From Arthrobacter pascens (lineage in GTDB: Bacteria; Actinomycetota; Actinomycetes; Actinomycetales; Micrococcaceae), in the NCBI RefSeq assembly GCF_030815585.1, contig NZ_JAUSWY010000001.1, positions 124,001-188,000 of the forward strand: 64,000 nucleotides of DNA, written 5' to 3'. Every line of letters starts with the position of its first letter. Position 1 is the stretch's first letter. The position numbers and the translations under genes were made by a program. The notes beneath the pieces were generated by a model, which was not told the origin of the DNA, made no database searches, and saw only the letters and a list, made by a program, of their open reading frames with translations. Of this stretch, positions 55,849-62,799 are shown piece by piece.

Positions 55849-56163
55849 CTACGGATCTGTGCCGTCGTCGGGCTCGGAGTCCGGGACGGCTTCCACGACG
55901 GCCCGTTCCTGCTGCTTGACGCTCCGCCGGTCCAGAACCAGGGCAGCGACGGCGCCCAGAACCGCACCGCCGGCGCCGAACATGACCAAGAAGAACCCGA
56001 ACACCGAGCCTCTGTCGAAGCTTGCGTCGCCGGGGAGCCCGTACGCGATGAAGGCCGCTACGGCGACGCCGACCAGCCCGCCAAGTAGCAGGAAAGGCAC
56101 GTACTTGGGTGCCCGGCGCACGGTGACCTCGCGGCGTTCAGCGGGGGATTCTTCAAAAGCCAT
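55849..56163 (-). CDS. Small two-helix membrane protein
   Basis: 104 residues with two hydrophobic segments (VPFLLLGGLVGVAVAAFIAYG and VFGFFLVMFGAGGAVLGAVAALV) and an acidic C-terminus. Common next to purF in related bacteria; function unknown. Start ATG 56163. It lies 83 bp upstream of purF on the same strand. Confidence 0.8.
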   Translation of the reverse strand: MAFEESPAERREVTVRRAPKYVPFLLLGGLVGVAVAAFIAYGLPGDASFDRGSVFGFFLVMFGAGGAVLGAVAALVLDRRSVKQQERAVVEAVPDSEPDDGTDP

Positions 56164-56179
56164 GCCATCTAGCCTACTT

Positions 56180-56252
56180 CCCCTGAGTTTTTGTCCGCAT
56201 AATGACCCAAAACGGCGGTTAGCTCCCTAGAGCTGGACAAAGACTTCTGGGG
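56180..56252. repeat. Intergenic palindromic element, family A copy
   Basis: The left end CCCCTGAGTTTTTGTCCGC pairs imperfectly with the right end CTGGACAAAGACTTCTGGGG. It shares GAGTTTTTGTCC with the other two family A copies. It lies between two minus-strand genes. Confidence 0.6.
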
Positions 56253-56257
56253 AGGGG

Positions 56258-56596
56258 CTAGCTGCCGCGGTAGGTGGAGTAGGCGAACGGACTCAGGAGC
56301 AGCGGCACGTGGTAGTGCTCCGCGCCCGTCACCTCGAACACCAGGTCCACCTCCGGGAAGAACGTGGCCGTGCCCAGTCCCGCATAGTAGTCGCCGGTGC
56401 CGAAGTTGAGGCGGTAGTGCCCGGGCGGCAGCTGCTCCGGCCCCAGGTCCTTCGCGCGGCCGTCGGTATCAGTGGCGGAACTGGCAAGCTCACGCCAGCT
56501 GCCGCCGTCGTTCCGGTAAAGCACGACGGCGACGCCCGCCGCCGGGCGTCCGGCGCCGGTGTCCAGGACGTGCGTGGTGACGTGGGAAATGCTCAT
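56258..56596 (-). CDS. uraH: 5-hydroxyisourate hydrolase
   Basis: 112 residues, transthyretin-like fold. It hydrolyses 5-hydroxyisourate to OHCU in uric acid breakdown. Signatures: N-terminal HVTTHVLDTGAGRPA and C-terminal YHVPLLLSPFAYSTYRGS, with the invariant YRGS end. ATG 56596 overlaps the uraD stop by 4 bp. Confidence 0.96.
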   Translation of the reverse strand: MSISHVTTHVLDTGAGRPAAGVAVVLYRNDGGSWRELASSATDTDGRAKDLGPEQLPPGHYRLNFGTGDYYAGLGTATFFPEVDLVFEVTGAEHYHVPLLLSPFAYSTYRGS

Positions 56597-57090
56597 TCGC
56601 TGATCAGTCCTTCGAGCCGCAGTACGGCGATTTCGCGCAGTTGCCGTGCCACGATTACGTCTTCTTCGGCAGGGGAGTTGGCAAGCCGCTCTTTGAGGGC
56701 CGCCAGAATTTCCGGGGCGGTCCGTCCGGCGGCGCGGACCAGGAAGACCCTGCCGAACTTTTCCTCATAGTCCCGGTTGCCTTGGGCCAGCGCCTCCACC
56801 ACCTTGGCATCCGCCGGGTCAACGCCGGACTGTTCCGAGCGCGACATGGAGGCTTCGGCGGTGCTGGCTGTTGGGCGTTCACCGATCCGGGGGTGGTGCG
56901 CCATGGCTGCTTCAACCTCAGCTGACGTGAACGGCTCCGCCGCTTCGGCTGCGGACCTCAGCAGGGCGGCCTTGGACGGAAAGGGGCGCGCGGCTGTAAT
57001 GGTCTCCACCCAGCGTCGGACATCGATGCAGGGTTTCAGGACTTCGGCGGCCCGGACTGGATCCGCGCTGTTGAATTCGGCAAGCTTCAT
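56593..57090 (-). CDS. uraD: OHCU decarboxylase
   Basis: 165 residues. It makes S-allantoin from OHCU. Signatures: MKLAEFNSADPVRAAEVL, HHPRIGERP with the catalytic His, QGNRDYEEKFGRVFLVRAAGR and EILAALKERL. ATG 57090 is used because the frame to 57195 adds a non-family leader, and GAGG lies upstream. It precedes uraH; no uricase gene is in the window. Confidence 0.94.
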   Translation of the reverse strand: MKLAEFNSADPVRAAEVLKPCIDVRRWVETITAARPFPSKAALLRSAAEAAEPFTSAEVEAAMAHHPRIGERPTASTAEASMSRSEQSGVDPADAKVVEALAQGNRDYEEKFGRVFLVRAAGRTAPEILAALKERLANSPAEEDVIVARQLREIAVLRLEGLISE

Positions 57091-57281
57091 GCTGGTTGAG
57101 TCCTCGGTGCAGGTGCTGGCATCCATGGCGATGGCTATGCGGAGGCTGGTTTCCCGGTAACTTCCTTTCTTGGGAAGCAAATAAGTGTTCCGCATAATGG
57201 AACTGTTATTTCAGCATACGTAATAGTGAAGCGGACGGTGCCGCGCAGTGTCAAGCGACCGCAGCGCCTGCGCGTGCCGGT

Positions 57282-57704
57282 TCAAACCTGGGAGGTCCGG
57301 GACAGGATCCAGGTGTTGGTGGCGCCCTGCCGTTCAAACGTCACAGTGGTCACCAGCGCCTGGATGAGTGCGAGGCCCCGGCCTGACTCCGATTCATCCT
57401 CCACGGGAACGGGTTCCATGGGCCCGAACGGCGGTTTGGCGTGGAAGGCACTGACCCGGGCCTGGAGGAGCGCGGGCTGGACGCTGATTTCCATTCCCAG
57501 CTCCACCGGCAATGCTGTGGCCGGTTCCGCGTGCTGGACGATGTTGGAAGCAGCCTCGATTACGGCCGTGGTGAACGTCATCTGGTCCATGTCCTGGACG
57601 AACGGTGCATCCTCCCAGAGGCCATCCAGCTCGTTATGGACCGATTCGATGGCTTCTGGTGTGGACAGTCCCCGGAAGCTCCGGCGGGCCAGGACGTCAG
57701 TCAT
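57282..57704 (-). CDS. RsbW/SpoIIAB-like ATPase (anti-sigma or regulator kinase)
   Basis: 140 residues of the HATPase_c_2 family. The N-box region EAASNIVQHA and the ATP-lid segment ESGRGLALIQAL are present. The usual G1 box (DxGxG) is replaced by a segment around SAFHAKPPFGP that lacks the key Asp. Kinase activity may therefore be weak or absent. It overlaps the STAS gene by 8 bp, and in the operon it would act on the STAS protein and bind a target. Confidence 0.82.
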   Translation of the reverse strand: MTDVLARRSFRGLSTPEAIESVHNELDGLWEDAPFVQDMDQMTFTTAVIEAASNIVQHAEPATALPVELGMEISVQPALLQARVSAFHAKPPFGPMEPVPVEDESESGRGLALIQALVTTVTFERQGATNTWILSRTSQV

Positions 57705-58029
57705 TGCTGAACGCTTCTTCCGCCGAGGCGTAGGAGGTCAGCACCCTGTCCATGCTGGTCAGCTCCAGCACCATCTTTACCTGCGGCTGGACGGCCGCGA
57801 TCCGAAGGTCGCCGCCCGCCTGACGGGCAGCTTTGAGGCAGCCGATCAGTGCCCCAAGGCCGGAGGAATCCATAAAGGCAGTCTTCTCCAGGTTGACCAC
57901 TATCCTGCTGGACCCGCCCGCGATGACGTCCGTGACGAACTCGCGGAGCTTCGGGGCAGACACCATATTGAGCCGTCCGTCTGCCTTCACCTCCGCATAC
58001 GAGTCCTTGACTTCGTAGCTAAACTCCAT
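57697..58029 (-). CDS. STAS-domain anti-anti-sigma factor-like protein
   Basis: 110 residues. STAS fold with the phosphorylatable Ser in the motif AFMDSSGLGALIG (residues about 52-64). It switches partners when phosphorylated by the downstream ATPase and is reset by the PP2C phosphatase of this operon. Start ATG 58029 with GAGAGGAAA, overlapping the GT2 gene end by 11 bp. Confidence 0.92.
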   Translation of the reverse strand: MEFSYEVKDSYAEVKADGRLNMVSAPKLREFVTDVIAGGSSRIVVNLEKTAFMDSSGLGALIGCLKAARQAGGDLRIAAVQPQVKMVLELTSMDRVLTSYASAEEAFSND

Positions 58030-59986
58030 CGGATTTCCTCTCTTCCGGCTGTGTGCCTGGAGGGAGCACAAACCCCTTGTACCGAACGGCACCTATCAGG
58101 ACGCTCATCACCGCCAGGTCAAAAATAACCCAAGCCACGTTGACCAGCGTGCCAAGTGGCTCCGCCAGTCCCGTGGCGAGACGGATAAGGCCGACGACGG
58201 CGGCAACCGCCAGCATTGCCGACACCACGATTTGCGGGCGGATGAGGCTCCAGGAGGGGCCTCCGCTCTGGCGGGCCTTGGGCGTCACGGCGAACCCCAG
58301 GGGGCGTCCGAACCAGACGTTGCGGGCCGCCGTCGAGCAGGCCTTGATCCACGTGGGGAACAGCGCCAGGCTGTACTGCTGGCCCCGCCACGTGCTGATT
58401 CCGCGGCCGGCCACGGCGAACAGCAACTGGTTGACGATCATGAATGGGACGAAGCGGATGAAGAAGTCCGTGCTCAGGCTGCCCACCGGCAGGATGCCCA
58501 GCAGCAGGTAGATGATCGGGGCCGTGAAGTAGATGACCGCCGCATAACCGCTCAGGTACGTCCACATGGTGGCAAAGTACATCAGCCGCTGGCCTAGCTT
58601 GAAGCCAGGCTGGACCAGCGGGTTTTCGCGCAGCATCACTTGAATAGTTCCCTGCGCCCAGCGAAGGCGCTGCGTCAGCATGGTCTTGAGGTCTTCCGGT
58701 GCCAGACCGTACGCGAGGATCTCGTGGTGGTAGACGCTTTCCCAGCCCATCGCATGCATACGCATGGCGGTGGCCATGTCCTCCGTAACGGAGATGGTGG
58801 CGAGCGGCATGACTGGCTGTGCCTCGTGATTGCGCTCCACAGACAGTGCGTCCAGGACCGCCTGCACGGATTCCAGGGCGCCCAGCGGGGACCAGTCGCG
58901 GGCCGACATCCGTTTCACGGCATCGTCGGCGACAACAGGGACCCCGGCCTCGCCCACGTGGGCCAGCTCCATGGTTGCGATTTCTTCGAGGTCCGCCTGG
59001 AGCGCCGACACGTCAGCCATCACCAGTGCCTGGACGGCCTGGTCCACCCGGCGGCGCACCCGGTAGGTGATCTCGCTCAGCGGTTCGCGCCGGTCCAGTT
59101 GCTGCTGGGCCTCAAAGGTTGCCGCCTCCACCTCGTCCAGGACCTGGAAGACCAACGGTGACTCGAGGCCGGGCGATTTCCTGGCCTGCCGGATGGCCGA
59201 TCGGGAGGCCGCCAGCGCGCGCCGTATGCTCTTTTCGGTTTCCTTGACATAGCCCACCAGACCCAGCTGCATCAGGGCCTCACGGCGGAGGATCGCGTTG
59301 GAACCGCAGAAGAAGGCCGCATTCCAGCCGTCCTTGCCCTGCTGGATGGGGCCGTAGAAAAGGGGCGCCTGGCTGCCCAGCGGATCATCCGCCGGGACGT
59401 TGCTGAAGTACTGCGGGGTCTGGACCAGTGCCACCCGGCGGTTGTTGAAGTAGCCCACGGTCTTGTCCAGGATGTCCGGCTCAGGGATCTGGTCGGCATC
59501 CAGAATGAGGAGGAACTCGCCGTGGGTGACCATCAGGGCGTTGTTCAGGTTGCCTGCCTTTGCGTGCCGGGGCCGGTCCGTCCAGTCCTCGCCGCGTGTC
59601 ACATAGCCCAGTCCGTGCTCTTCGGCGAGGGATTCGAGTTCGGGACGGGAGCCGTCGTCCAGGATCCAGGTGCTGTGCGGGTGGCGGATCCGTTGCGCGG
59701 CCAGGGCAGTGGTCATCACCATGTCCAGGGGCTCGTTGTAGGTAGTGATGAACACGTCCACCGTTGCATCGCGCGGCGCTTCCGGCGCTCCGCTGCGCAG
59801 CTTCAGATTCCACACGGTCATGCCGAACAGCATGACGTCGATTAGGCTGTAGGTTTCCGCCAGCACCAAGGGCACGGAGATCCACCAGGCATCCCAGTTG
59901 AGCGATGAGTTCCAGCGCCAAGCCACGTAATTCAGGCCGAGGATGACTGTTAGTGCCACGACCAGGCGGGTCCAGAAGCGGGTCAT
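58019..59986 (-). CDS. Cellulose-synthase-like glycosyltransferase, family 2, membrane-bound
   Basis: 655 residues. Two N-terminal helices, a cytoplasmic GT-A domain and about six C-terminal helices. Processive synthase motifs are visible: Asp in ILDDGSRPELE, D-x-D in ILDADQIPEPD (about 163-165), TED in ISVTEDMATAM and QRLRW in TQRLRWAQGT. A helical insertion (about 250-370) separates them. There is no PilZ domain, so no direct c-di-GMP site. It probably builds an exported polysaccharide. It overlaps the phosphatase gene by 4 bp and the STAS gene by 11 bp. Confidence 0.92.
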   Translation of the reverse strand: MTRFWTRLVVALTVILGLNYVAWRWNSSLNWDAWWISVPLVLAETYSLIDVMLFGMTVWNLKLRSGAPEAPRDATVDVFITTYNEPLDMVMTTALAAQRIRHPHSTWILDDGSRPELESLAEEHGLGYVTRGEDWTDRPRHAKAGNLNNALMVTHGEFLLILDADQIPEPDILDKTVGYFNNRRVALVQTPQYFSNVPADDPLGSQAPLFYGPIQQGKDGWNAAFFCGSNAILRREALMQLGLVGYVKETEKSIRRALAASRSAIRQARKSPGLESPLVFQVLDEVEAATFEAQQQLDRREPLSEITYRVRRRVDQAVQALVMADVSALQADLEEIATMELAHVGEAGVPVVADDAVKRMSARDWSPLGALESVQAVLDALSVERNHEAQPVMPLATISVTEDMATAMRMHAMGWESVYHHEILAYGLAPEDLKTMLTQRLRWAQGTIQVMLRENPLVQPGFKLGQRLMYFATMWTYLSGYAAVIYFTAPIIYLLLGILPVGSLSTDFFIRFVPFMIVNQLLFAVAGRGISTWRGQQYSLALFPTWIKACSTAARNVWFGRPLGFAVTPKARQSGGPSWSLIRPQIVVSAMLAVAAVVGLIRLATGLAEPLGTLVNVAWVIFDLAVMSVLIGAVRYKGFVLPPGTQPEERKSDGV

Positions 59987-61095
59987 GCCCCGGCTTGACG
60001 CGGCAGCCGGCGCACCACCACAGCGGTCACGTCATCCTCGGCTGAATCCGCAGGCGCCAGGGACATAATGGCATCGCTGGCGGACTGGGCGGACTGCTGG
60101 CCATGGGTGGCGAGCAGCACCGACTCCGTGAAGGCCTCCACGGAGTCAAAGACGTCCAGGACTCCGTCGCTCACCACCACCAGTGAGTCTCCCGGTGCCA
60201 GGGTAAGTGTCGACTGTGGCCAACTGGACCCGGCCCAGGCGCCTACGGGCGGGCCGCCGGAGGGAAGGCGGCGGACTGTCCCGCCGGAGTGCACGTGGAG
60301 CGCAAGCCCGTGCCCGGCGTCGACGTAGCTGACTGTACCGGAGGCCGCCTCCAGGCGGGCGTGGAACAGGGTCACGAAGGAACTGGATGAGTCCAGATCC
60401 GAGGCGATGGCCGAGCTGGCAGCCGTGAACGCTCCGCCCAGATCCTGGCGGAGGCTTGTGGAGCGCATCACGGCACGTACAGTGGCGGCGATGAGGGCCG
60501 CGCCCATGCCCTTGCCCATGGCATCGGCGAAGGTCAGGTGCAGGCCGTCAGGTGTCCGGTACCAGTCATAGAAGTCGCCGCCGACGTTGCGGGACGGACG
60601 GAAAGCCCCGGCCAGGTCGTAGCCTTCAACCCGGACATCTTCATTGGGCAGGAGACTCTGCTGTACCTCGGTGGCACGCTCAAGTTCCTTGACGGCGGCC
60701 GAGTCCACAACGGGGGACTGGCGCCGGCGGAAGAGTGCGTTGACCCTTGCCTGCAGTTCACGGGGACTGAACGGCTTGCTGATGTAGTCATCGGCGCCGT
60801 TGTCCAGGCCCGCGAGTTTGTCCAATTCCTCGACGCGCGCCGTCAGCATCACAATGAAGGCGTCCGAGAATTCACGGAGAAGCTTGCAGACCTCCAGACC
60901 ATCCAGGTCCGGGAGGTTGAGGTCCAGGGTGACCAGATCCGGCCGAACACGGCGGACTTCCTCAACCCCTGGCAGGCCTGCTTCCGCCTCTGTGACTTCG
61001 AAGCCCTGCTTGGTCAGAACCCGGACCAGCAGGCCCCGGATATCCGGGTCGTCCTCGATGACAACGGCGCGGCGTGTTTCGGGGTTGGAAGGCAT
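59983..61095 (-). CDS. Response-regulator-linked PP2C phosphatase (RsbU/SpoIIE type)
   Basis: 370 residues. Receiver domain 8-125 with the acidic pair D15/D16, phospho-Asp D58 (VTLDLNLPD) and Lys K107 (YISKPFS). A linker helix (about 130-150) is followed by a PP2C domain with metal Asps at D174 (GGDFYDW) and D191 (FADAMGKGMG), and a C-terminal EDDVTAVVV. An unknown kinase would activate it to dephosphorylate the STAS protein. ATG 61095 is chosen; the frame to 61551 is a shadow. Confidence 0.93.
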   Translation of the reverse strand: MPSNPETRRAVVIEDDPDIRGLLVRVLTKQGFEVTEAEAGLPGVEEVRRVRPDLVTLDLNLPDLDGLEVCKLLREFSDAFIVMLTARVEELDKLAGLDNGADDYISKPFSPRELQARVNALFRRRQSPVVDSAAVKELERATEVQQSLLPNEDVRVEGYDLAGAFRPSRNVGGDFYDWYRTPDGLHLTFADAMGKGMGAALIAATVRAVMRSTSLRQDLGGAFTAASSAIASDLDSSSSFVTLFHARLEAASGTVSYVDAGHGLALHVHSGGTVRRLPSGGPPVGAWAGSSWPQSTLTLAPGDSLVVVSDGVLDVFDSVEAFTESVLLATHGQQSAQSASDAIMSLAPADSAEDDVTAVVVRRLPRQAGA

Positions 61096-61353
61096 GCCTC
61101 TATTAAGGCCTGTCTTTACAGAGTTGTCACGCTGGCCACCGGCTGGCGTCAAATTGCAGAGGTCCTTCGTTGCAATCCCCGAGGCACCAACGAAGGCCGT
61201 TACGGACACTCGGTCTTGCCAAAATCCTTGGACTGCCTTGACTGGAACTTGAGCAACTGTCGCCACACTCGAAGTGAACGGTTCGAAGAAGAGCTGGTCG
61301 GCTTGCTTGGGGACGGTCTGAGGACGGTGCAGGGTCTTATGTGGAGAATTCAA

Positions 61354-61626
61354 ATGGGGCGGGACCCGGTGCCCGTCGCGTCGGGACTGCGCGAGCTGAT
61401 GAAGCAGACCCCGGAGTACAAACGGCGAGCCCTTCTCTACTGGAAGCACTCGTGGAAGGTTCGAACCCTTTCCAGGGCACTGGCCAAAGCCCTGGACGAG
61501 TGCGTCCAGGCATCCACATGGCCTGGCGAGCGGCTCCAAGTCAGCCTCCACATGTCAGGACAGGTGGAACAGATCACCCGGCGCCTTCAGCTTGAAACCA
61601 AGGCGTACGCCCGCATCTGCGCGTGA
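61354..61626 (+). CDS. Possible small protein gene containing an RNA-like structure
   Basis: A 90-residue frame (MGRDPVPVASGLRELMKQTP ... KAYARICA) with GGAGAA 7 bases before ATG 61354; ATG 61339 is an alternative. Its third positions are less G/C-rich than in neighbours, so it may be foreign or non-coding. The 70-nt structured element at 61440-61509 lies inside it. I do not recognise the product. Confidence 0.35.
   Translation: MGRDPVPVASGLRELMKQTPEYKRRALLYWKHSWKVRTLSRALAKALDECVQASTWPGERLQVSLHMSGQVEQITRRLQLETKAYARICA
61440..61509. other. 70-nt nested palindrome with a tRNA-like shape
   Basis: CTGGA plus GCACTCGT (61440-61453) pairs with ACGAGTGC plus TCCAG (61496-61509), leaving one mismatch. 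Inside, CCAGGGC (61472-61478) pairs with GCCCTGG (61489-61495), and GGAAGGTTCGAACCCTTTCC (61454-61473) holds a self-complementary GGTTCGAACC. The parts stack into a compact folded RNA or cruciform. It reads similarly on both strands. Confidence 0.5.
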
Positions 61627-61963
61627 TCCATAAGCGCAGGAGCGCGCGCTAAAGACTGGACGCCTCCCACGAAGTATCCACATTGCGGTGATGACACCAT
61701 TCCATGCCGGAAACTTTGCATGCGACACTTGGGGACAATCGAGTGGCTGGGGGGATACCAAGTCAGGAGATTGCCGTGTGTTGGAAGCCAGCATTAATGA
61801 TGACTGCTGCAGGTGGAACCACTGTCTCAGGTGAGGCTCCTACAACGCCCCGAGCCCGGCCGGGAGGTGAACTCCCGCCCGTCCGAAGAACGCCTTCTTC
61901 ATACCTGATTCGTTCGCTCAGCCAGCGGCCGGTCACGCCGCCACTGAAGAAGGCGAGCGGATC
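61627..61963. other. Intergenic stretch with no recognised gene
   Basis: About 340 bp with lower coding signal than its surroundings. The only structure seen is a short hairpin CGGGAG-gtgaa-CTCCCG (61861-61877). No promoter or gene I would call. Confidence 0.5.
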
Positions 61964-62077
61964 ATGTATATAGGGTGGGCGTACCTCATAGCGGGCCTCA
62001 TAACCATGGATACGCTTCTCGTGGTTTTGTGGCTAATGGACAAGGACTGGCCCTGGCCAAAGCGCTGGAAGAAATAA
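61964..62077 (+). CDS. Very small membrane protein (37 residues)
   Basis: ATG 61964 to TAA 62077 encodes one hydrophobic helix (YIGWAYLIAGLITMDTLLVV) followed by a basic, Trp-rich tail (DKDWPWPKRWKK). An AAGGCGAG site lies 6 bases upstream. The pattern of helix plus positive tail is typical of real small membrane proteins. The stop is 23 bp before the end of the convergent GNAT gene. Confidence 0.45.
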   Translation: MYIGWAYLIAGLITMDTLLVVLWLMDKDWPWPKRWKK

Positions 62078-62099
62078 CCTCAAGGAGCACCCCGAACGC

Positions 62100-62672
62100 T
62101 CAGCGCAGGTCAAGGCGCATGAGCACGCGCGGGAAGCCATTGAGCACCGAGTCTGTATCGGCGGCCTTAACGAACCCGGCCCGTTCGAAGAGCTTGCGGG
62201 TACCCACATAGGCCATGGTGAGGTCGACTTTGCTGCCGCCGTTGTCCACCGGGTAGCCCTCGATGGCAGGCGCGCCGTACGTGCGGGCCAGGCCGACGGC
62301 ACCGTTCAGCAAGTGATGGGAAATTCCCCTGCCGCGATGCCCGGGCCGGACCCGGATGCACCACACCGACCACACGTCGAGATCATCCACGTGCGGAATC
62401 TTGCGGTTGCGGGCGAAACTGGTGTCAGAACGCGGATGGACCGCCGCCCAGCCCACCACTTCGTCGCCGTCGTAAGCAAGGACCCCGGGCGGCGGATCCT
62501 GCCCCACCAGTTGCTTCACCAAGTCTCCGCGGGCGGTCCCGCGCAACTCCAGGTTTTGCTTGGAAGGGATACGGTAGCTCAGGCACCAGCACACGTTGGC
62601 ATCGGGCCGCATGGGGCCAACCACCGCCTTCACGTCCAAGAACAGCGTTGCGGGCCGGATCTCGATCGCCAT
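62100..62672 (-). CDS. GNAT-family N-acetyltransferase
   Basis: 190 residues. The acetyl-CoA loop motif A is VRPGHRGRGISHHLLNGAV; motif B-like AYVGTRKLFERAGFVKA follows. N-terminal MAIEIRPATLFLDVKAVVGP. The substrate is unknown. Start ATG 62672. Confidence 0.9.
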   Translation of the reverse strand: MAIEIRPATLFLDVKAVVGPMRPDANVCWCLSYRIPSKQNLELRGTARGDLVKQLVGQDPPPGVLAYDGDEVVGWAAVHPRSDTSFARNRKIPHVDDLDVWSVWCIRVRPGHRGRGISHHLLNGAVGLARTYGAPAIEGYPVDNGGSKVDLTMAYVGTRKLFERAGFVKAADTDSVLNGFPRVLMRLDLR

Positions 62673-62799
62673 GCCGCTATCCTGTCACCGCCGCCCGGCA
62701 CCCACAACGGACACCAAACGCATGGCCGTTATTGACTTGCTCATTGTGGAATGCAGGCTCCAGGAAGAAGGAGCGGGGCCCTGACCACGTGGGCCCGGC

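Follow-up and report, generated by a model that had tools for sequence, protein, structure and literature searches.

Partner-switching genes conserved beside a PilZ-less, insert-bearing cellulose-type synthase in Arthrobacter pascens and its relatives

Four minus-strand genes of Arthrobacter pascens, at positions 57282-61095 of a 64,000-nucleotide stretch of its 4.73 Mb genome (contig NZ_JAUSWY010000001.1, 124,001 to 188,000; hereafter the window), encode a PP2C phosphatase, a cellulose-synthase-like glycosyltransferase of family 2 (GT2), a STAS protein and an RsbW-like ATPase. We consider it probable, on comparative grounds, that these genes specify one self-contained regulated enzyme, in which a partner switch acts directly on the synthase and replaces control by PilZ and cyclic di-GMP (c-di-GMP). 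The allosteric control of cellulose-type synthases in bacteria is usually ascribed to c-di-GMP and its action on PilZ. No PilZ match was obtained in most of the host genomes that we sampled, nor a GGDEF match in more than a quarter, so that the gating of polymer synthesis in them may need another explanation. The quartet, together with an insert at one defined place in the synthase, offers a concrete hypothesis on such gating that is testable in soil Arthrobacter, and the same synthase family occurs in plant- and animal-associated Proteobacteria.

Gene organisation and conserved order

An original prediction, made from the letters of the window and their translations, had described four minus-strand genes with overlapping ends, and both the coordinates and the Pfam domains agree with it: successive genes overlap by 4 bp (PP2C/GT2, 59983-59986), 11 bp (GT2/STAS, 58019-58029) and 8 bp (STAS/ATPase, 57697-57704). 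The phosphatase (59983-61095, 370 residues) combines an N-terminal receiver (60742-61065; Response_reg, E = 2.8e-27) with a PP2C domain of the SpoIIE type (60007-60552; SpoIIE, 5.2e-34). We set its start at the ATG at 61095 because most close orthologs have 370 residues; the open reading frame list begins further upstream, at a GTG. By eye, the receiver has DD, D, T and K, residues that we take to be typical of such domains, and the PP2C domain has the presumed metal-binding Asp residues. The synthase (58019-59986, 655 residues) resembles BcsA (Cellulose_synt, 4.2e-22, and Glycos_transf_2), and the Pfam scan finds no PilZ domain in it, as had been predicted. It is followed by the STAS protein (57697-58029, 110 residues; STAS, 1.4e-18; ant_ant_sig, 5.8e-24) and by the ATPase (57282-57704, 140 residues; HATPase_c_2, 1.4e-9; 4.5e-9 in a profile comparison with RsbW, 6m36).

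This gene order is conserved well beyond the strain. Among the best 80 of 462 relatives, the closest named of which are Arthrobacter and Pseudarthrobacter, PP2C-GT2-STAS-ATPase is contiguous in 73 loci and GT2-STAS-ATPase in 75; the seven loci outside the 73 read GT2-STAS-ATPase-PP2C (two), PP2C-GT2 at a contig end (one), GT2-PP2C (one) or GT2 alone (three). Three of the four interrupted loci (L131, L132 and L134) carry the STAS-ATPase pair 1.6-3.5 kb away on the opposite strand. A further 48 loci, 47 from a sample of the family and one (L143) from a sample of the phylum, gave 46 GT2s once two broken synthase copies (L142 and L155) had been dropped, and 37 of these have an adjacent STAS-ATPase pair. 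The same holds for 18 of the 19 loci from a sample of the class, the remaining one lying at a contig end, and further families of that class also show the quartet order. The sets of nearest relatives, family and class overlap, and their counts are not summed. The synteny check proposed with the original prediction thus yielded a conserved block of receiver-PP2C, GT2, STAS and HATPase_c_2 genes in further families too, and the idea that the order belongs to this strain only falls away, since it is kept across many genomes.

GT2 homologs (E<=1e-100) are present in 63 of 295 family genomes and in 22 of 394 class genomes. The synthase family had looked rare in a phylum-wide search, in which, of 396 genomes, the window's own and G214 alone were listed with full-length matches; the class and family samples corrected this impression. 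One of the homolog searches covers the best 120 of 420 matches. Taking the 295 genomes of the family together, the synthase is accompanied by a STAS ortholog (E<=1e-20) in 62 of the 63 genomes with GT2, and such an ortholog is present in 4 of the 232 without, in figures uncorrected for kinship; in the 63rd genome (G683), the STAS match next to the GT2 is weaker (L220).

The synthase and its insert

The window synthase scores 345.6 bits against the BcsA family model TIGR03030, about half of the family cut-off of 699.1 and therefore below it, and its best structural relatives are BcsA proteins (PDB structures, 1.5e-66). These align to it in two pieces, residues 3-244 and 395-630. The alignment gap between them is an insert of about 150 residues (245-394; 58805-59254), located between a segment FFCGS..RREAL and the TED motif (residues 401-403; 58778-58786), which we take to be the catalytic base region, as in BcsA. 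In a 52-sequence alignment the motifs D110-D111-G112, D163/D165, T401-E402-D403 and Q439..R442-W443 are invariant. We consider the insert a candidate docking site and probably the route by which the switch acts on the synthase. The gene identities given in the original prediction were borne out; this insert and the altered G1 box of the ATPase (see below) were absent from that reading.

No Pfam family reaches its cut-off over the insert. Comparison of its profile with solved structures returned LidA (E 0.015 and 0.5), alpha-actinin (0.52) and M protein (2.7), which we dismissed as chance matches. The spacing from FFCGS..L to TED was measurable in 166 of the 206 GT2 matches of the fetched loci and amounts to 159-176 residues in 162 of them, 116 in L144 and L145, and 10 in L010 and L017, a pattern with which the sequence alignment agrees. 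The second half of the insert is best conserved among 56 non-redundant loci, for example at R363, S366-P367-L368, R385 and E388-A389-Q390.

Insert-bearing synthases differ from other GT2s at the TED site and in the tail. Between window residues 241 and 398, 11 of 12 actinobacterial members have 155-159 residues and L145 has 114; the count is 47-51 in 11 members from Proteobacteria and 27 in Nostoc, versus 4-5 in all ten of the other GT2s. The C-terminal tail is 4-47 residues long in insert-bearing synthases and 53-216 in other GT2s, and Pfam finds PilZ in six of ten insert-free GT2s versus none of the ten insert-bearing synthases scanned.

Related loci in other phyla

When plasmids were searched for relatives of the window GT2, a Nostoc plasmid came first and a Sphingobium plasmid second. 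In the Sphingobium record, the GT2 is faced by genes for an ATPase, a STAS protein and a SpoIIE phosphatase, and a second such locus is also present. A search with the Sphingobium GT2 returned 17 records, the query's own included, at 99-100% query coverage and at least 55.9% identity. We examined 11 proteobacterial loci, namely ten of these records and the second Sphingobium locus; the neighbouring genes were called from annotation, supplemented by a search for L249, L253, L254 and L255. In eight of the 11 (L247, L248, L250, L251, L252, L255, L256 and L257), STAS and ATPase genes are found no more than about 5 kb from the GT2, and all eight have a phosphatase. The plasmid records call the synthase only a glycosyltransferase or cellulose synthase, beside genes annotated as STAS, ATP-binding and phosphatase. 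The Nostoc locus encodes, within about 12 kb, a GH26 protein, a GT2, a STAS protein with DSSGLG, pieces of a PP2C protein and an RsbW-like protein (52 bits).

In a tree computed without the insert columns, the 24 insert-bearing synthases fall on one side of a branch (support 100/97; 200 of 200 bootstrap trees) and eight others on the other side; the root was set by the choice of outgroup, several outgroup branches are long, and the very distant L025 and L029 were dropped from the tree and kept in the insert table. The comparison thus supports the view that synthases with a TED-site insert in Actinomycetota, Cyanobacteriota and Pseudomonadota form a clade. STAS and ATPase genes occur in the fetched stretch for 19 of these 24 synthases, the others being L145, L160, L249, L253 and L254. 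At 25 control loci around other GT2 relatives, 3.1-19 kb long, no STAS or ATPase match was found at E<=1e-4; a PP2C model matched in three.

These observations support the part of the original prediction according to which the GT2 is made together with its own switch: the order is conserved, the STAS ortholog tracks the synthase through the family genomes, the trio recurs in three phyla, and STAS and ATPase matches are missing around the control synthases. That the GT2 is also controlled by this switch is made probable by the same comparison; the action itself is something we infer, and in the window strain, which has one SigB-like sigma factor, a sigma factor may be the target.

The switch proteins

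How might the switch operate? The phospho-acceptor motif DSSGLG of the STAS protein (57853-57870) is present in all 155 paired loci, among which some places and some genomes from two collections occur more than once, and in all 122 distinct STAS/ATPase pairs. Because this serine motif is kept throughout, phosphorylation of the STAS protein likely still operates as the switch. In the ATPase, the N-box residues E50, N54 and H58 are invariant in the 155 loci, and the window protein retains these together with GRGL. At the Asp position of the G1 box it has Ala86 (57447-57449), and its kinase activity is doubtful because of this replacement. Across the paired loci the column holds Ala in 82, Asp in 42, Glu in 28, His in two and Gly in one (75, 25, 20, 1 and 1 among the 122 distinct pairs); Asp, Glu and Ala follow groups, and the deeper families have Asp. 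For its sensor half, the nearest PP2C protein has a receiver in 90 of the 155 loci, GAF in 46 and another domain in seven, none being found in 12. We read this varying sensor half beside a constant GT2, STAS protein and ATPase as different inputs serving one output.

Directly downstream of the divergent synthases L144 and L145, whose insert is shortened, lies a STAS gene that is likewise divergent; neither locus has an ATPase or a PP2C match. Because they retain a STAS gene behind the GT2 under these circumstances, we favour the STAS protein as the contact. By eye, their STAS genes (L144:7797-8249 and L145:8181-8618) lack the D-S-S acceptor motif.

In the mechanism that we propose, the GT2 would be a membrane beta-glycan synthase in which partner switching has taken the place of PilZ and c-di-GMP. 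The RsbW-like ATPase would phosphorylate the STAS protein or, in the window's clade, perhaps only bind it; upon a signal, the receiver-PP2C protein would dephosphorylate it; and the STAS protein, once dephosphorylated, would turn the synthase on by binding the insert, which stands directly before the TED motif, a place at which movement could gate catalysis. We infer the contact between switch and GT2, the STAS protein rather than the ATPase as its bearer, the insert as its site and activation as its sign. On the analogy of SiaC (PMC8457831) and SypA (PMC4517449), we prefer dephosphorylated STAS as the activator. The wider proposal of an ancient synthase clade in three phyla, run by partner switching, with a STAS protein docking on the TED-site insert and serine phosphorylation gating polymerisation, is a tentative one, and we lean very slightly against its holding as a whole. 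If it were true, this would be, to our knowledge, the first partner switch with a processive polymerase as its output.

Alternative explanations

A number of observations weigh against direct control of the synthase. Nine of the 46 GT2s of the further loci have no adjacent STAS-ATPase pair, which wider stretches place within about 3 kb on the opposite strand for two of them (L215 = L056 and L226 = L053). PP2C-STAS-ATPase without a GT2 match is found in three genomes of one genus (L216, L217 and L219), a STAS-ATPase pair without GT2 in G515 (L218), and in another genus the trio stands apart from the GT2 (L213, L214, L221 and L224). Among the proteobacterial loci, three of 11 show no STAS or ATPase gene within 5 kb: L249 and L254 have the phosphatase only, and L253 a weak receiver-type match. 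The insert varies in length between phyla, Nostoc has a second one at another place, and four of the ten insert-free GT2s are also without PilZ, so that insert and PilZ are not strictly reciprocal. An ATPase that is retained without its G1 Asp may be a weak or dead kinase. Partial correlations in a mirror-tree comparison were 0.43 for insert and STAS and 0.37 for insert and ATPase, each given the core, and 0.27 for core and STAS given the insert (56 non-redundant loci, relatedness included); because the ATPase behaves like the STAS protein and relatedness is included, we gave this no weight as support for a STAS contact. Finally, a SigB-like sigma factor is commoner in family genomes with GT2 (17 of 30 tested) than in those without (3 of 23).

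What else, then, might the switch act on? The main rival is a classical anti-sigma circuit, in which a SigB-type sigma factor, encoded at another place, is held back by the ATPase, with the synthase simply co-transcribed or part of the regulon. Besides the SigB distribution and the trios without GT2, it draws on the window's own genome, which has one SigB-like sigma gene (position 3988888, the best SigBFG match, which at 211.9 bits falls short of the cut-off of 234.35) with no RsbW gene beside it; of nine HATPase_c_2 matches in that genome only two are in short frames, and since one of these is by eye a sensor-kinase fragment, the window ATPase is left as the one short protein that is clearly RsbW-like. 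As originally predicted, no sigma or sensor-kinase gene was seen near the quartet, by eye in the translations at 51-64 kb, some of which were also scanned against Pfam; no cognate sigma lies beside the operon (181-185 kb in the genome), the nearest weak match being at 138345 (23.2 bits). We selected 45 genomes with GT2 from the family, class and phylum samples and searched them for SigB-type sigma factors at E<=1e-40, the one sigma family searched: 14 have none. The three genomes with the trio alone have no SigB-like match at this threshold, while G008 and G480 have a SigB-type sigma and no STAS ortholog. Moreover, an anti-sigma circuit leaves unexplained why a TED-site insert accompanies the trio in three phyla. 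We regard it as unlikely; the switch may have another target besides, or act on a sigma factor in the window strain.

It is also unlikely that the ATPase, rather than the STAS protein, contacts and inhibits the GT2, with dephosphorylated STAS drawing it off. This arrangement would mirror the logic of RsbW, the loss of the G1 Asp fits a binding-only role, and the ATPase gene comes after STAS in the adjacent sets; the loci L144 and L145, however, have STAS beside GT2 and no ATPase match. We hold it very unlikely that the genes are merely co-expressed, the trio regulating something unrelated and the order being inherited by descent. Detached and GT2-free trios are consistent with this explanation, which is at odds with two findings: in three phyla the trio recurs next to synthases that are related yet distant, and none of the 25 control loci has a STAS or ATPase match.

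Least probable of all is an output through c-di-GMP, as in SiaABCD, Hsb and Bgr, to which the GT2 would respond indirectly. Diguanylate cyclases are among the known outputs of STAS switches (PMC8457831), and the window's own genome has five GGDEF matches, four of them listed, at 3.2-4.6 Mb. None of the four genes of the quartet contains GGDEF, and the synthase is without PilZ. We place this explanation so low because a GGDEF match is absent from 13 of the 45 genomes with GT2 and a PilZ match from 42. Eight of the 45 (G413, G441, G460, G535, G555, G619, G675 and G822) have neither GGDEF nor a SigB-type sigma, and thus have a STAS gene beside the synthase with the two best-known outputs of such a switch missing.

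Comparison with known systems

The three protein types and the DSSGLG phospho-acceptor are shared with RsbU-RsbV-RsbW; the window locus differs in having no sigma gene in view, a synthase between phosphatase and STAS protein, and no G1 Asp. With BcsA (TIGR03030; PDB 7lby and 4hg6) the synthase shares the GT2 core, the DDG, DxD, TED and QxxRW motifs and a segment FAVTPK that we take to be gating-loop-like, as we assume the roles of the motifs to be alike; it differs in its missing PilZ, its insert before TED and its score under the TIGR03030 cut-off, and no bcsB gene was seen beside it. Our search of open-licence PMC text found no paper on a partner switch directly controlling a GT2 synthase, and we know of none. 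As far as that search shows, the pairing of a partner switch with a PilZ-less, insert-bearing synthase is new as a mechanism; the parts themselves are known.

Direct control of enzymes by STAS-type proteins has been described, as for SiaC and SiaD (PMC8457831). In SiaABCD, HsbD (with HsbA) and BgrR (with BgrV), the phosphorylation state of a STAS protein sets the activity of an enzyme and thereby biofilm or polysaccharide formation, as proposed here; the enzyme there is a diguanylate cyclase acting through c-di-GMP (PMC8457831), whereas the neighbour here is the polymerase itself. No cyclase accompanies it in the quartet, and a PilZ match is missing from most host genomes sampled. SypA/SypE of Vibrio fischeri and HmpUVW of Nostoc punctiforme likewise tie a STAS protein to biofilm polysaccharide (PMC4517449, PMC8256260), SypA being active when unphosphorylated, with its target unknown (PMC4517449); the passages on them make no connection with a synthase that lacks PilZ and bears an insert at the TED site.

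The original prediction had also suggested a possibly new system. As a gene block it is not wholly new, since a Klebsiella block whose content resembles that of the proteobacterial loci found here has been listed (PMC12974863); the likeness is one of gene content, and the passage that lists it gives no mechanism, insert or wider family. The suggestion may hold for the proposed mechanism, of which the search of open-licence PMC text found no description. In its TED-side position, the insert resembles, we assume, the CSR of plant cellulose synthases. The P-CR and CSR of those enzymes are likewise segments inserted in the GT2 catalytic core and have been linked to oligomerisation (PMC6821405); the likeness to our insert is one of position.

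Polysaccharide partners and other observations

A GH26-like gene occurs in the fetched stretch of 40 of 122 GT2 loci, from overlapping sets. In L148 it is fused to an OpgC-type acyltransferase (OpgC_C, 8.9e-50; GH26, 9.7e-5); a search of 15 genomes with this fusion gave a match in ten, eight of these over both parts, and none in the window's genome. Among the 11 proteobacterial loci, DUF3131 genes are annotated in eight, OpgC by name in four and an 'acyltransferase' in three. These partner genes, given the roles that we assume for GH26 and OpgC-type enzymes, make an acylated beta-glycan the probable product of some members; to extend this to the window strain is guesswork.

The window's genome has a second synthase (L142:8406-10381; G000:C1:4062423-4064323), 61-65% identical and split in two frames, which adjoins a GH26 gene and a DUF7793/SpoIIAA-like gene; the related copy in L155 is likewise broken. 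The GT2-free trios of L216 and L219 lie among genes that by eye resemble clpX, clpP and valyl-tRNA synthetase. In L250, L251, L254 and L256, the synthase, DUF3131 and switch genes are carried on large Enterobacterales plasmids, three of the four with OpgC; in L254, a plasmid of P. stewartii DC283, an IS66 element borders the phosphatase, and STAS and ATPase genes were not seen nearby. The second insertion in the Nostoc synthase (L246:7917-9902) adds about 100 residues between DDG and HAKAGN, in the same fold; this protein matches 3246 database proteins at E<=1e-30, the best 120 of which are Nostoc-like where named.

An Rfam search of window positions 56000-62700 gave no match up to E 0.1. Upstream of the operon, about 1 kb (61096-62099) is without a called gene, and conserved stretches occur in it in six of ten related loci compared. 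Downstream of the ATPase, on the same strand, lie genes for an OHCU decarboxylase and a HIUase/transthyretin-family protein (56258-57195), which we take to serve urate breakdown.

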